Source: Bacteroidales bacterium (GTDB lineage: Bacteria; Bacteroidota; Bacteroidia; Bacteroidales; PWNQ01). Taken from it: a stretch of DNA of 32,316 nucleotides. The stretch is from contig PWNQ01000118.1 of NCBI GenBank assembly GCA_003557725.1, positions 1 to 32,316 on the forward strand. Reading direction: 5' to 3'. The notes under the pieces are model-generated. The model was not told where the DNA came from and ran no database searches. It saw nothing but the letters and a program-made list of their open reading frames with translations. The position numbers and the translations under genes were made by a program. Below are positions 5,689-32,183 of the stretch, in pieces; the stretch's first letter is position 1; the number at the start of each line of letters is the position of its first letter.

Positions 5689-6051
5689 ATGCGTTTTTTC
5701 TTGTTGTTTGTTGTAACCTTACTGATCTTTTCTTCCTGCAACCGGGAGGATGAGGATAATGGGCTGAAGAATCCGCCGGATGATGTGATCGCTTATGATC
5801 GTATGGTGGATATTCTGGTGGATTATCACTGGAGTGAAAACGCCATCAAATACATGATGCGTTACGGGGCTTCTCCGGGTCCATTATCGGAGCGTATATA
5901 CCATACCGTGCTGGAGAAGCATGACATTACCCGGCAGGAGTTTGCCCGTAGTATGGCGTATTACAGTTCAGATCCCAACCGGATGGAGGCCTTATATACT
6001 TCTGTAATGGAAGAGCTCAGTTCCCTCCAGGGCAAGCTGGGGGGAGGGTGA
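5689..6051 (+). CDS. DUF4296-like small lipoprotein
   Basis: 120 aa with lipobox (LLIFSSCN) and 'DRMVDILVDYHWSENAIKY...LEKHDITRQEFARSMAYYSSDPNRMEALYTSVMEEL', typical of Bacteroidetes DUF4296 proteins. Confidence 0.75.
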   Translation: MRFFLLFVVTLLIFSSCNREDEDNGLKNPPDDVIAYDRMVDILVDYHWSENAIKYMMRYGASPGPLSERIYHTVLEKHDITRQEFARSMAYYSSDPNRMEALYTSVMEELSSLQGKLGGG

Positions 6052-6483
6052 GGCAGGCAGGCTCCGGTTCATCTCTCCGATCACCTGGTCCAGGTCTGCC
6101 CCGTCGTTTACCGTATACTCAATCTCAATAAGGTTGTCATTCTTCATCTCCGCAAAGCCTTCAATGACCATGTTTTCTACGTCTTGCTCGGGAATGGTAA
6201 AAGAGTTTCCTGTGACAATGGCATAGGCATACGTGTTCTGCCCCAGCTGATAGATGTTATATAGCCTGATCTGTGCGGTGTTTACATCCAGTTCCACCTT
6301 CACACTAAAGGTGGTGGGTTGGGGGTAGAGCGTGCTGGTTTCGCTTGTTTGCCAGGTCCCGGTAAACTTATCCCGGGGGTCGGCCATCGGGTCATCATCA
6401 ATAATTTCATCACACCCGGCCATAAATATTGCGCCCAGGATCAACACCATGACCAAAATCAGAGAGAGAGGTTTCTTTTCCAT
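5992..6483 (-). CDS. Hypothetical lipoprotein
   Basis: 163 aa with lipoprotein signal (MEKKPLSLILVMVLILGAIFMAGCDE). The 3' end overlaps the convergent gene by 60 bp. Confidence 0.65.
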   Translation of the reverse strand: MEKKPLSLILVMVLILGAIFMAGCDEIIDDDPMADPRDKFTGTWQTSETSTLYPQPTTFSVKVELDVNTAQIRLYNIYQLGQNTYAYAIVTGNSFTIPEQDVENMVIEGFAEMKNDNLIEIEYTVNDGADLDQVIGEMNRSLPASPSPQLALEGTELFHYRSI

Positions 6484-6512
6484 GTCCTTAAAGTTTAGTT
6501 GTTAAAATAATG

Positions 6513-6579
6513 AGCCCGGTCTAAATAGCCCACTATTGATTTTCAGTGGGTGAATCATTTGATGTATTCAGTCCGGGCT
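6513..6579. repeat. MITE-like inverted-repeat element, copy A (67 bp)
   Basis: Ends AGCCCGGTCTAAATA ... TATTCAGTCCGGGCT are imperfect inverted repeats (13/15), with an inner stem CCCACT/AGTGGG. Homologous by eye to 15980-16047. Confidence 0.6.
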
Positions 6580-6622
6580 TATGTACTTAAATAATGTTTT
6601 TTGGATATTTGATTTGTTTGTT

Positions 6623-8629
6623 TTATAATAAGCTGTTTACCAGTTTTTCATCTGCAATATTTGGCAGGGTTACTTTCAGTTGCGGATTATCTTTCATGGC
6701 TTCTTTCATGGCAAAGATGGCGCCCTTATTTCGGGCCCATGATCTTCTGGCTATTCCGTTGTTCACATCCCAGTGGAGCATCATTTTCAATCGTTTATCC
6801 GACTCATCAGATCCATCTAAAACCATGCCAAATCCTCCATTAATCACTTCTCCCCATCCAACTCCACCACCGTTATGTATGGATACCCATGTAGCTCCCC
6901 GGAATGCATCGCCGATCACATTATGTATGGCCATATCTGCGGTGAAGCTGGATCCGTCATAGATATTTGATGTTTCCCTGTATGGGGAGTCGGTGCCGGA
7001 TACGTCGTGGTGGTCACGCCCCAGGATAATGGGTTCTTTTACATCCCCACGGGCTATGGCCTGGTTAAAGGCCTGAGCGATCCGTATTCGCCCTGGGGCA
7101 TCCGCATAAAGGATGCGGGCCTGGGAGCCCACCACCATTTTGTTTTCTTCTGCTGCTTTGATCCACTTCAGGTTATCTGCAAGCTGCTGTTTGATCTCCC
7201 CGGGGGCTTCTTTATGCATGTCTTCTAGTACTTTTGCTGCGATAGCGTCGGTGGTGCGCAGGTCTTCAGGGTCTGAAGAGGCGCATACCCATCGAAAAGG
7301 ACCGAAGCCGTAATCAAAGCACATGGGCCCCATAATATCCTGTACATATGATGGATATCTGAAATCGCCTTTTTCATTGAGGATGTTAGTTCCGGCGCGA
7401 CTGGCCTCCAGCAAAAAGGCGTTTCCATAATCAAAAAAGTACATACCCCTTTGGGTAAGGGTGTTTACAGCATCCACATGGCGGTGCAGGGAAGCATAAA
7501 CCTTTTCCTTAAACTTTTTCGGGTCTTTGGCCATCAGGTTGTTAGATTCTTCCAGGCTGAGTCCTGCCGGGTAGTATCCGCCGGCAAAGGGGTTATGTAA
7601 AGAAGTTTGATCACTACCCGCATCCACATGTACATCATGCTTTACAAACGCTTCCCAGAGGTCTACGATATTGCCCTGATAGGCAATGGAAACAGCTTCC
7701 TGATTGTTTTTGGCCTTCCGGATACGGGCAATAAGCGCGTCCAAGTCTGTAAATACTTCATCTACCCACCCCTGTTCATGTCGTTTTTGTACAGCTTTGG
7801 GGTTAACCTCAGCCACGACCCCCACCACACCGGCAATGACAGCCGCTTTAGGCTGGGCTCCCGACATGCCACCAAGGCCTGAGGAAACAAACAGCCTCCC
7901 TTTTACAGGTTCTTTGCCTTTAGAGATCATGCGCATGGCATTCAGCACTGTAATGGTGGTGCCATGAACAATTCCTTGGGGGCCAATATACATAAAAGAA
8001 CCGGCGGTCATCTGGCCGTACTGGGAAACACCCAAAGCGTTGAACTTTTCCCAGTGGTCGGGGCTGGAATAATTGGGGATAACCATGCCGTTGGTGACCA
8101 CCACACGGGGGGCATCAGGATGAGACGGGAATAGCCCCATGGGATGGCCCGAGTAGAGAACCAGGGTTTGCTGGTCGGTCATCTCTGCTAAATATTTCAT
8201 ACAAAGGCGGTACTGGGCCCAGTTTTGAAAAACAGCCCCATTGCCACCATAGGTGATAAGCTCATAGGGGTGCTGAGCCACTGCCTTATCCAGATTGTTG
8301 CCGATCATGAGCATAATGGCTGCCGCCTGCCTGGAACGATGAGGATAGTGGCTAAGGCTCCGGGCCGACAGATCATAAGGCGGCCGGTAACGGTGCATAT
8401 AAATACGGCCATACTCCTTAAGCTCAAGGGCAAACTCAGGAGCCAACACTTCATGATGCTCAACCGGAAAATAACGAAGAGCATTTCTCAACGCCAGCTT
8501 TTTTTCCTCATTGGTCAGTATGTCTTTGCGAACGGGGGCACGGTTGATGTCTTTGTCAAACTCCGGCATGGAGGGAATATCTTCGGGAATACCCCGTAAA
8601 ATGTCTTCTTTGAAAGATATATGAGCCAT
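6623..8629 (-). CDS. hutU: Urocanate hydratase
   Basis: ~668 aa; 'YGGNGAVFQNWAQYRLCMKYLAEMTDQQTLVLYSGHPMGLFPSHPDAPRVVVTNGMVIPNYS', 'GGMSGAQPKAAVIAG', 'SGTDSPYRETSNIYDGS' match urocanase. Probable start is MAHISF at 8629. Confidence 0.95.
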   Translation of the reverse strand: MAHISFKEDILRGIPEDIPSMPEFDKDINRAPVRKDILTNEEKKLALRNALRYFPVEHHEVLAPEFALELKEYGRIYMHRYRPPYDLSARSLSHYPHRSRQAAAIMLMIGNNLDKAVAQHPYELITYGGNGAVFQNWAQYRLCMKYLAEMTDQQTLVLYSGHPMGLFPSHPDAPRVVVTNGMVIPNYSSPDHWEKFNALGVSQYGQMTAGSFMYIGPQGIVHGTTITVLNAMRMISKGKEPVKGRLFVSSGLGGMSGAQPKAAVIAGVVGVVAEVNPKAVQKRHEQGWVDEVFTDLDALIARIRKAKNNQEAVSIAYQGNIVDLWEAFVKHDVHVDAGSDQTSLHNPFAGGYYPAGLSLEESNNLMAKDPKKFKEKVYASLHRHVDAVNTLTQRGMYFFDYGNAFLLEASRAGTNILNEKGDFRYPSYVQDIMGPMCFDYGFGPFRWVCASSDPEDLRTTDAIAAKVLEDMHKEAPGEIKQQLADNLKWIKAAEENKMVVGSQARILYADAPGRIRIAQAFNQAIARGDVKEPIILGRDHHDVSGTDSPYRETSNIYDGSSFTADMAIHNVIGDAFRGATWVSIHNGGGVGWGEVINGGFGMVLDGSDESDKRLKMMLHWDVNNGIARRSWARNKGAIFAMKEAMKDNPQLKVTLPNIADEKLVNSLL

Positions 8630-8896
8630 AATGATCTTTTTTTTGGATTGAGCGCCCAATTTCACACTTGAAAAACAGTGAAAATCAACGGACAGTAAAT
8701 ACTTTTACTAATAACGTATTAAATATAATATATTGGCTATAAGCATTATGATATGATAATAAAACCAATGTATATGAACAGCAAAATTAGCTAAAAAATG
8801 TGAAATGTATGTCCTGATATAATAACCAACAGTTCAACCGGGAGTTGATGGTGGGGAGGTTAAACCATAAATCAAACGGGTAATGGCAGGGGGGGT

Positions 8897-15199: not shown

Positions 15200-15895
15200 T
15201 TACTTTAACCCTTTTACTTTGGGCTTCCCCGCCACAAAGTCCTTGAGGTAAAAGGGTACAAACCAGGCGGTGTTCTCAAATGCTTTTGTAAAGTATTTTT
15301 TTTGGGCCAGGGGGTTCATAAATGCTGCCGATGGGGTGCCTTTTTCCAGCATGGTAATATTTTTTCTTCCGGAAAACAGGGTTTGGCATTTTTCTGCTCC
15401 GCAGCCAAAGTAGTACACGTGCTGGTTTGTTGTATATTTATCCAGAGATGTTTTTTCCATGATCTGTGCGCTCACCGGCTCCAGTATTTCACCACTGGCA
15501 TTACAGGCCGTGGTATATACTTCCATGCGGCGGGCATCGATCATGGGAATATACACTCCCCGGGGGTCATGGTGATGGTGGATGGCACTTAGGGCCATGG
15601 CCTGAAGGGTGCTTACTGATAACAGGGGGATGGATAGTGCCAGGCATATGCCTTTTGCTGCTGAGACCCCTATGCGCAATCCGGTATATGAGCCGGGGCC
15701 CTGGCTTACTGCTACGGCGTCCAGTTGCTGAAACTCTGACTGACCCTCCTGTAAAACCTCTCGAATAAAGGGGTGAAGCACACGGGCATGTTCCAGAGTG
15801 TCCACCTCATGACGGGTAGCTAAGGGCTGACCGCCACGGCATAAAGCTACCGAACAAACACGCGTGGAAGTTTCTATATTTAATATTAATGCCAT
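15200..15895 (-). CDS. tsaB: tRNA t6A biosynthesis protein TsaB
   Basis: 'MALILNIETSTRVCSVALCRGGQPLATR', 'VSQGPGSYTGLRIGVSAAKGICLALSIPLLSVSTLQAMA'. The listed ORF start at 15955 lies in the promoter box; the real start is probably 15895. Confidence 0.93.
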   Translation of the reverse strand: MALILNIETSTRVCSVALCRGGQPLATRHEVDTLEHARVLHPFIREVLQEGQSEFQQLDAVAVSQGPGSYTGLRIGVSAAKGICLALSIPLLSVSTLQAMALSAIHHHHDPRGVYIPMIDARRMEVYTTACNASGEILEPVSAQIMEKTSLDKYTTNQHVYYFGCGAEKCQTLFSGRKNITMLEKGTPSAAFMNPLAQKKYFTKAFENTAWFVPFYLKDFVAGKPKVKGLK

Positions 15896-15944: not shown

Positions 15945-15952
15945 CAAAAATA
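15945..15952 (-). promoter_or_regulatory. -7 box TATTTTTG of tsaB with TTG (-33) 19 nt upstream
   Basis: Plus-strand CAAAAATA at 15945-15952 and CAA at 15972-15974. Confidence 0.5.
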
Positions 15953-15979
15953 CATGATTGGACTTAATAAACAAATATG

Positions 15980-16047
15980 AGTCCAATCTAAAAAGGTTAC
16001 TTTTGATTTTTAGCGGATATGAAAAATGTGTGTTTTTAGACCGGACT
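15980..16047. repeat. MITE-like inverted-repeat element, copy B (68 bp) flanked by 8-bp direct repeat CAAATATG
   Basis: AGTCCAATCTAAAAA ... TTTTTAGACCGGACT (13/15 inverted repeats), flanked by CAAATATG at 15972-15979 and 16048-16055. Confidence 0.65.
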
Positions 16048-16118
16048 CAAATATGCCACGGTATTGGTCTTTTTTATATTTTCGGCATGTGAAAAAGCGT
16101 TGGTGAGCCAACCATGTG

Positions 16119-16158
16119 CGGTGGCCCTCCCCTTTAGGGGCCGGGGGCGCGCGCGGGG
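16119..16158 (+). repeat. Dispersed GC-rich repeat module (CGGTGGCCC.TCCCCTTTAGGGG.GGGGCGCGCGCGGG), copy 1
   Basis: Same ordered words recur at 32219-32266. Confidence 0.65.
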
Positions 16159-16201
16159 AAATGATGCGAGGAGGCGAAGAAATAATAATGTCACCCCTTC
16201 G

Positions 16202-16243
16202 GGGCATAGGGCATAGGGCATAGGGCATGGGGCATGGGGCATG
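16202..16243 (+). repeat. Tandem 7-bp repeat (GGGCATA)x3 (GGGCATG)x3
   Basis: Six consecutive heptamers read directly, followed by a TTTGGG-rich tail. Confidence 0.9.
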
Positions 16244-16306
16244 GGGGTTTGGGTTTGGTGTGTGGCGCGGAGCGTTTGGGTGTGATGCGTGGGGTGTGAG
16301 GAGTAG

Positions 16307-16372: not shown

Positions 16373-18703
16373 ATGAAGCGCATTATATTTGCAGGCATAT
16401 TATGGATATTGGGGTTGGTTTATTCAGCCCCTTTAACCGCACAACATCGTGCCACCGATAGCATGGATGTTCATCACTATCATATTGATCTGGATTTTGT
16501 GCATCTTTCCGGTCAGTCTTTAAGCGGCTTTGCGGAGTTAACTCTTCAGGCCCGTTATCCTGCAGATCAGCACAACCTTTACTTTGATCTTCTAATGTTG
16601 CATATAGATTCCATACTTGTTGATGGGCAGGTGTATCCTTATCATTACAATGATACACTGATCACCCTTCCCGCATCCGGGCTGGATTTGTATGATACCC
16701 TTACCGTAGTCATTTATTATCATGGGCAACCAGTGGTAGAAAGTGCCAACTGGGGTGGCTTTCATATTTTGAATGACAGCAGCATGGCCTATAACCTGGG
16801 GATAGGCTTTCAGGCAGACCCTCATAATTACGGGCGTGTTTGGTTCCCATGCGTTGATAACTTCACCGACCGGGCTACCTATTCGTATCACATTCATACC
16901 AAAGGAGACCAAATGGCGGTATGTGGAGGGGTGTTGGACTCGGTAACTGTTCATGGCAACGGGCATAAAACCTGGCACTGGGACCTGAAGCAAACCATAC
17001 CTACTTATCTGGCTTCAGTGGCAGTTTCTGATTTTTCAGAGATAGAGCAGGTGTACCCCGGGGTGTTGGGAGATATTCCGGTATTCTTGCATGTGGTCCC
17101 TTCCGATTCCTCAGATGCGTTAACTACTTTTTCCGGTATTAATAGTGCTTTACAGGCTTTTGAATCGGCTTTCGGGCCTTATCGCTGGCCCCGGGTTGGC
17201 TTTGTGGGCACCCCAAAAGGAGCTATGGAGCATGCCATGAACATTGCATTCCCCAGGCATGCCATAGATGGAACCCTTAACTATGAGCGACTGGTGGTCC
17301 ATGAGCTGGCCCATAGCTGGTTTGGAAACCTGGTTACCTGTAAAACCGCCGCAGATATGTGGCTTAATGAGGGGTGGGCCGTATATAGTGAAGCCATATT
17401 CCGGGAAAGTACAGGCGGAAAAGAAGCTTACCTTGATTATATGCGGGAGAAACGCCATGAAGTGATCAAAACGGCTCATGTGACCGATGATGGATACCGG
17501 GCCGTATATGGCCTGCCCCAGGCTTATACCTACGGAGCTACCGTATACGACAAAGGAGCCACCGTAGTCCACGCTCTGAGAAACTATTTGGGCGATAGCC
17601 TCTTCTTTCATACTACACGGGCCTACCTGGATACCTTTGCCTTTGGGTATGCTTCCACTCAGGATATGAACCAGTTCTTTAACCAGTACTCAGGGATAAA
17701 CCTGGATGCCTTTTTTGATGCCTGGGTCTATCGTCCCGGGTTTTCTCATTTTAGCATTGATTCCTTTAATGTATATCCCTCGGGTGCAGATTATGAGATC
17801 ACCCTTTACCTGCGTCAGCGCTTGCTGGGGACAACTCAGATGGCGGATGACAACCGCCTGGAAGTGGGCTTTGTGGATGATCAGCAAAATATCATAAGGG
17901 AACAGGTGCAGTTTTCCGGGCCCCATTCATGGGTAACCCTTACCCTCCCTTTTTATCCTCAATCTGTTATGATGGATCCTGGCGAAAAGATGAGTCATGC
18001 CACCACAGATAGAATGATCACATTAAAAGGCAGCGGGCTTGAAGAGTTTCATCATACCTATGCCGGGGTGGAGGTGGAGGCGGTAAACGATTCCGCACTG
18101 GTCAGGATCAGCCATAACTGGGTCGCACCCGCAAACCATAAGACAGAACCTCCTTTGTACCACGTCTCCGGAAAAAGATACTGGAAAGTGGAGGGCGTGT
18201 TCTCTTCGGGGTTCCGTGCCCGGGGGCACTTTGAATACGTGAAAAGCAGCCTGATGGATGGGGAGCTGGTAAATTCGGTTATGGATACCTTGTCACTACT
18301 TTATAAAAAATGCCTTTCTGACCCCTGGAAGCCCTTGAAGTATAGCCGTATGGGAACTCTTTTCAACGGAGTGCTGATTACCGATTCACTAATGCCCGGG
18401 TATTACACCCTTGGACGCTACGATAAGAGCCTGGGAGTTTATGATAAGGAGGATGATAAAAAGCATATTACCATCATACCCAATCCGGCCAGCCAGTATG
18501 TGGATATCCTTGTGAAAGACCAGGGGCCGGTGGAGCTTATGATATATACGGTCGCCGGCCAAATGGTGACTGAAAAACGTGTGGAAGGGGATAACCAGGC
18601 TTACCGTTTGTCAATGGATGGGCTGAAACCGGGAGTATACCTGCTACGGTTTCGCCGGAAAGAACAAGGATTGGACGAAACCCATAAGCTGGTGGTTCAA
18701 TAA
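16373..18703 (+). CDS. M1-family metallo-aminopeptidase with T9SS type A C-terminal sorting domain
   Basis: Signal peptide (MKRIIFAGILWILGLVYSAPLTAQ), GAMEH and 'VVHELAHSWFGNLVTCKTAADMWLNEGWAVYSE' (HExxH-18-E), and the C-terminus 'ITIIPNPASQYVDILVKDQGPVELMIYTVAGQMVTEKRVEGDNQAYRLSMDGLKPGVYLLRFRRKEQ..HKLVVQ'. Start corrected to the ATG before the signal peptide. Confidence 0.95.
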   Translation: MKRIIFAGILWILGLVYSAPLTAQHRATDSMDVHHYHIDLDFVHLSGQSLSGFAELTLQARYPADQHNLYFDLLMLHIDSILVDGQVYPYHYNDTLITLPASGLDLYDTLTVVIYYHGQPVVESANWGGFHILNDSSMAYNLGIGFQADPHNYGRVWFPCVDNFTDRATYSYHIHTKGDQMAVCGGVLDSVTVHGNGHKTWHWDLKQTIPTYLASVAVSDFSEIEQVYPGVLGDIPVFLHVVPSDSSDALTTFSGINSALQAFESAFGPYRWPRVGFVGTPKGAMEHAMNIAFPRHAIDGTLNYERLVVHELAHSWFGNLVTCKTAADMWLNEGWAVYSEAIFRESTGGKEAYLDYMREKRHEVIKTAHVTDDGYRAVYGLPQAYTYGATVYDKGATVVHALRNYLGDSLFFHTTRAYLDTFAFGYASTQDMNQFFNQYSGINLDAFFDAWVYRPGFSHFSIDSFNVYPSGADYEITLYLRQRLLGTTQMADDNRLEVGFVDDQQNIIREQVQFSGPHSWVTLTLPFYPQSVMMDPGEKMSHATTDRMITLKGSGLEEFHHTYAGVEVEAVNDSALVRISHNWVAPANHKTEPPLYHVSGKRYWKVEGVFSSGFRARGHFEYVKSSLMDGELVNSVMDTLSLLYKKCLSDPWKPLKYSRMGTLFNGVLITDSLMPGYYTLGRYDKSLGVYDKEDDKKHITIIPNPASQYVDILVKDQGPVELMIYTVAGQMVTEKRVEGDNQAYRLSMDGLKPGVYLLRFRRKEQGLDETHKLVVQ

Positions 18704-31890: not shown

Positions 31891-32124
31891 AACGGTAATA
31901 GTTTTCCTAAAATTGGCGCTAAATTAATAAAAAAATATTAATCAACAATCATTTGTTAATAGCATGATTTTATACAATCAGTTATATAAATCCATGATAT
32001 GATTCAAAACGCTGGCAGACCAGATTTTTAAGTATAACGGTTCAGTGGTTTTTTTCATATATGCCGCGTGTTAATTTATAATCATTCTAAATTGATCGGG
32101 TGCAATTTTTCATATGTTTATTTT

Positions 32125-32183
32125 TTGCCACGAATGCACGAATAATATGGGGTTTTATCTGTTTAGAATTTTGTTCGTTGTTC
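32125..32183 (+). repeat. Dispersed repeat modules (TTGCCACGAATGCACGAATAATATG and AATTTTGTTCGTTGTTC), copy 2
   Basis: 25-bp exact and ~17-bp near-exact matches to the reverse complement of 16307-16364, in swapped order. Confidence 0.8.

Follow-up and report, generated by a model that had tools for sequence, protein, structure and literature searches.

The tsaB locus and its inserted element

The window analysed here is the whole 32,316-nucleotide stretch of contig PWNQ01000118.1 from a Bacteroidales bacterium (assembly GCA_003557725.1, genome G000). Near its middle, tsaB and a divergently transcribed peptidase gene border an intergenic region that contains a short element (Table 1). The original prediction described a 68-bp MITE-like element with 13/15 inverted-repeat ends and an exact 8-bp direct repeat on either side. 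These letters are all present: CAAATATG occurs at 15972-15979 and again at 16048-16055, and the 15-base ends AGTCCAATCTAAAAA and AGTCCGGTCTAAAAA (the right end reverse-complemented) are identical at 13 of 15 positions. The size and the duplication length required correction once other copies were aligned, as described below. An Rfam scan of the window returned no match.

Bacteroidetes promoters follow the consensus TTTG/TAnnTTTG, and a pair of this kind can be read by eye ahead of tsaB. Its TTTG overlaps the left duplication rather than the MITE. The earlier placement of the left flank over the -33 area of a tsaB promoter stands only as an overlap with a consensus match. Because this TTTG overlaps the left duplication, it predated the insertion and survived it. 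The MITE landed upstream of the promoter-like sequence and left it intact, so the insertion at tsaB is probably neutral. The same intergenic region also carries tandem GGGCATA/GGGCATG units at 16201-16256, beside a very G-rich segment at 16129-16160.

Table 1. Features of the window that bear on the element upstream of tsaB
Feature	Position	Strand	Basis or remark
ORF without assigned family	5992-6483	-	neighbour of the decayed MITE copy
Decayed second family copy	6512-6580	+	no recognisable duplication; between the ORF above and the urocanase gene
Urocanase gene	6623-8665	-	other neighbour of the decayed copy
tsaB, start MALILNIETS	15200-15895	-	PF00814, E 9e-28; the element lies 83 bp upstream of its start
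Promoter-like pair for tsaB: TTTG (15972-15975), 19 bp, TATTTTTG (15945-15952)	15945-15975	-	consensus match, read by eye
Left 6-bp target-site duplication AAATAT	15973-15978	.	73-copy register comparison
MITE short form, 70 bp (GAGTCC...GGACTC)	15979-16048	+	alignment of same-genome copies; profile match
Left terminal inverted repeat GAGTCCAATCTAAAAA	15979-15994	+	consensus GAGTCCAGTCTAAAAAGGTTA matches left end of related IS
TGATTTTTAGCGG, sole copy left of the 13-bp direct repeat (consensus TGATTTTCAGCGG)	16004-16016	+	short-form deletion joint
Right terminal inverted repeat, TTTTTAGACCGGACTC on +	16033-16048	-	right end of related IS is TTTTTAAACYGGACTC
Right 6-bp target-site duplication AAATAT	16049-16054	.	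73-copy register comparison
GCCACGAATGCACGAATAATATG, uninterrupted copy of the dispersed repeat split in copy L015	16307-16329	-	related empty site
M1-family peptidase with Por secretion tail, divergent neighbour	16373-18703	+	

A high-copy family in one genome

A search of the genome for further copies had been suggested with the original prediction. Apart from the window copy itself, a 115-base query scored at least 40 copies in G000, with E-values down to 6e-32; a first look had given 190 candidates. Exact matches to the end motif AGTCCRGTCTAAA number 96 in 2.8 Mb, against none for the reversed control. Together these counts show that the repeat in the window is not a product of chance. The core word TTTTGATTTTCAGCGG, allowing up to two mismatches, matches 182 times against 6 for its control. 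About 180 dispersed copies in 2.8 Mb is therefore a fair estimate, although a few sequences outside the family may hold the core word and decayed copies escape it. Placement is intergenic: only 1 of 37 copies with enough flank lies wholly within an ORF of at least 120 aa, compared with 0.52 of random positions. A profile of the family matches the tsaB copy over 72 columns (15978-16049, E=2.4e-23, with this copy itself in the profile) and also recovers the decayed copy, which was outside the training set (6511-6579, E=1e-9).

Edges and target duplication

Copies were taken as short stretches around matches with their left and right ends paired, and 73 passed the filter (53 short, 20 long). With GAGTCC...GGACTC as the ends, a 6-bp duplication is exact in 37 of the 73 copies and has at most one mismatch in 54; the shuffled expectation is 1.1 and 4.9, respectively. 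Two neighbouring registers were considered. Ends of TGAGTCC...GGACTCA give an exact 4-bp duplication in 38/73 copies, with the preceding base nearly always A and the following base nearly always T. Ends of AGTCC...GGACT, the register of the original prediction, give an exact 8-bp duplication in only 2/73.

The bounding bases decide between these registers. Among copies with no more than one mismatch in the inner four bases, the duplication opens (left, right) with A,A in 47, T,T in 7, G,G in 1 and T,A in 2. It closes with T,T in 51, A,A in 4 and T,G in 2. Since the rare exceptions covary on both sides, the T and A that adjoin GAG...CTC belong to the duplicated target and not to the element. 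Both the 4-bp and the 8-bp readings were replaced by the 6-bp reading on these grounds. The target consensus is ANNNNT and AT-rich. In 14/73 copies the flanks differ at 3-4 positions, as would be expected of old or rearranged copies.

The element at tsaB is accordingly 70 bp long, and the edges drawn earlier for a 68-bp element were one base off on each side. The apparent 8-bp repeat consists, on each side, of the 6-bp duplication, one element base (G on the left, C on the right) and one base that matches by chance (C15972 and G16055). The terminal inverted repeats of this copy match at 14/16 positions, and those of the family consensus are almost perfect.

Long and short forms

The family also has a long form of 151 bp (153 with the bounding T and A), in which a palindromic unit forms the core between 13-bp direct repeats of TGATTTTCAGCGG. 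Removing exactly 81 bp from it, one 13-bp direct repeat plus the palindromic unit, gives the 70-bp form. Neither form has coding capacity, and both are much shorter than any transposase gene. Mean pairwise identity is 0.928 among long copies versus 0.839 among short ones, which points to more recent movement of the long form, in a non-random sample where short copies came mostly from similarity searches with the tsaB copy and long ones from the end pattern. Many contigs stop about 118 bases into a long copy. We read these contig ends as the assembler breaking at near-identical repeats, in which case the MITE family accounts for part of the assembly fragmentation.

Related empty sites

One copy, L015, splits a second dispersed repeat to give CACGAATGCACGAAT[MITE]ACGAATAATAT with the duplication ACGAAT. 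The same repeat occurs unbroken in the window itself, once upstream of tsaB (Table 1) and once around 32115-32162. A weaker second case is L005, a local paralogous pair with one member carrying the MITE and one lacking it. At tsaB, neither of two congeners offers a usable orthologous empty site, because the upstream neighbour differs in both: an efflux-type gene (typed by eye from its sequence) takes the place of the M1 peptidase. The empty sites that the original prediction looked to were thus found in related form, at the repeat split by L015, whereas congener synteny at tsaB precludes the orthologous comparison. The dispersed repeat CCACGAATGCACGAATAATAT, to which the two window copies belong, also recurs near other genes of the same genome.

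Partner insertion sequences in related genera

The 22-base left end of the MITE, TGAGTCCAGTCTAAAAAGGTTA, is also found at three contig ends of Bacteroidales bacterium KA21 (G048). The KA21 sequence beyond this end matches complete insertion sequences (ISs) of about 1,974 bp in G222 and G230 (Seramator thermalis). The left end of the MITE agrees with the G230 IS at 19/19 positions and with the KA21 IS end at 22/22. Its right end agrees with the G230 IS at 18/20, and the right ends of ISs in G391 and G328 concur. All five genomes with these common ends (G048, G222, G230, G328 and G391) are other members of the same order. Past the ends, the MITE core showed no homology to the interior of the ISs. 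Flanks of the ISs fit ANNNNT in 8/9 cases on the left, a count that includes two unclassified elements without a demonstrated transposase (L117 and L133), and in 4/4 on the right. The two complete copies, in G230 and G222, have no matching duplications at their two sides; rearrangement is one possibility. L117 and L133 (CSMAG_2693) have left ends identical to the MITE/IS end that lead into unrelated sequence, and may represent a further partner IS or a non-autonomous element of greater length.

The G230 transposase contains a DUF772 domain, and its best NCBIfam model is NF033551 (IS1182), with E 1e-32 and 113 bits against a curated cut-off of 270. Transposases of the related ISs are 64-66% identical to it over the alignment. 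Conserved candidate DDE residues are D177, D372 and E493.

No IS1182-like transposase was found in G000 (92.6% complete) or in the incomplete assemblies of congeners G001 and G002. Short-read bins often lose multi-copy ISs, and at this completeness the failure to find such a gene in G000 does not prove its absence. Many known MITEs have no resident autonomous partner, so with assemblies this incomplete the missing partner does not disqualify the family. A full-length IS with the same termini, as originally sought, exists in other genera and is absent from this assembly. The ends held in common with IS1182-like elements argue strongly that the MITE would be mobilised in trans by a transposase encoded elsewhere; this part of the original prediction gains a candidate transposase type but no partner within G000, G001 or G002.

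A model and its alternatives

Taken as a whole, the best explanation is that the 70-bp element upstream of tsaB represents the short form of a new MITE family, moved by a putative IS1182-like transposase, to which we assign a probability of about 0.92. Good support for the first proposal, a tiny non-autonomous MITE, comes from its copy number, its duplications, the related empty sites and the ends common with transposase-bearing ISs. In the proposed mechanism, an IS1182-like DDE transposase would bind two distinct ends, GAGTCCRGTCTAAAAAGGTTA on the left and TGTGTTTTTARACYGGACTC on the right. It would then excise or copy the MITE and insert it at a cut staggered by 6 bp at A-NNNN-T, and host repair of the stagger would yield the 6-bp duplication. 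Replication slippage may have removed the long-form core, a long palindrome between 13-bp direct repeats, to leave the 70-bp form. With its ends intact, the 70-bp form could then have spread on its own.

The repeats could instead be mobile but moved by a different transposase. A DDE_Tnp_1 search of the genome found a single IS1634-family gene (C148:310-2097; L105/L109), and searches for IS3-type (rve) and DDE_Tnp_1_6 transposases found none, which leaves it the sole transposase in G000 by the families searched. IS1634 elements make 5-6 bp duplications. However, no MITE-like terminus occurs around this gene at up to 3 mismatches, and it is the IS1182-like elements of other genomes, unlike the C148 gene, that carry both MITE ends. 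We consider this source improbable.

Still less probable is a REP/RAYT-like or other palindromic intergenic repeat that is kept for a function (terminator, mRNA stability, or a nucleoid or regulator site) and spreads without duplication. Strong palindromes (the long-form consensus folds at -71.5 kcal/mol), intergenic location and similar folded cores in other genera would all suit such a repeat. REP elements are palindromes of 20-40 bp without target duplication or other marks of transposition, whereas this element is 70 bp long, duplicates precisely 6 bp with covarying outer bases, and has related empty sites and IS-type ends. The duplications by themselves largely refute such a repeat. A functional role on top of transposition is possible. 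Finally, the idea that the element is fixed tsaB leader or regulatory DNA merely resembling a transposon draws on its place directly upstream of promoter-like sequence, and is already refuted by about 180 copies at unrelated sites, as well as being at odds with the congeners, in which another gene adjoins tsaB upstream and the element is missing from that locus.

Relatives across the Bacteroidetes

Both congeners have MITEs related to the IS1182-linked family, as do members of further families in the order (G015, G042). Others with the same ends occur elsewhere in the Bacteroidetes, vent genomes included; the named records include CSMAG_1401 and two SZUA MAGs. The cores of several are folded in a comparable way, a likeness that inverted repeats alone may give.

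Two of these genomes have features of their own. In G029, loci L053, L060 and L068 hold a MITE-like repeat with different ends, GAGGCTGTCTCAAAA, and a core up to 83% identical to the long form, which suggests that ends or cores were exchanged. A SZUA-53 MAG (L118, L120, L122-L126, L128, L130-L132) has two MITE subfamilies that differ from each other yet share their outer ends, and many of its copies have short flanking direct repeats.

A speculative and rather doubtful extension is that these elements form an old Bacteroidetes MITE superfamily. Outer ends and a folded core (a GCTGATTTT-type stem with CCCTTTAGGG/GGGGCAAA arms) would be kept across families while the letters drift and ends are swapped between IS types, the last as judged from the similar core within GAGGCTGTCTCAAAA ends in G029. 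If so, the core itself would be under selection, as a transposase-recruiting, replication or insulating hairpin, and would not be filler.

Comparison with known systems and significance

One close parallel, by description and not by sequence, is MITECca01 of the Cardinium endosymbiont, which has 169 copies and derives from an IS982-family element (PMC9769881). Both families live in Bacteroidetes hosts at very high copy number, lie mostly between genes and share their ends with an IS; MITECca01 belongs with another IS family and has intact parents in the same genome, whereas none is assembled here. Porphyromonas gingivalis has MITE239, MITE464 (PgRS), MITE700 and BrickBuilt, with IS5-like termini that read GAGACC... 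in BrickBuilt and PgRS (PMC4596501). These elements are likewise non-autonomous, come from the same phylum and have IS-like termini, and BrickBuilt too is predicted to fold into long stem-loops. BrickBuilt has 19 copies per genome, and its duplications vary in length (PMC4596501), against about 180 copies and 6 bp here; the IS5-like termini of the group also differ.

Among NCBIfam models, the transposase of the ISs with MITE-like ends best matches the IS1182 family, at a score below the model cut-off. Within that family, ISPse1 has 16/16 end repeats and a 4-bp duplication (PMC3281130) and IS1272 makes none (PMC5678879); the 6-bp ANNNNT duplication differs from both. The same MITE family was not found in the open-licence literature on IS1182-type or Bacteroidetes MITEs, which is weak evidence of novelty. 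The family is new, but of a well-known kind of element.

This work adds a high-copy MITE family with exact ends, target and duplication, tied to a transposase type of related bacteria. Such MITEs upstream of genes can pass for leaders or regulatory sites. With no resident transposase of that type found, the origin of the youngest copies becomes a testable question.
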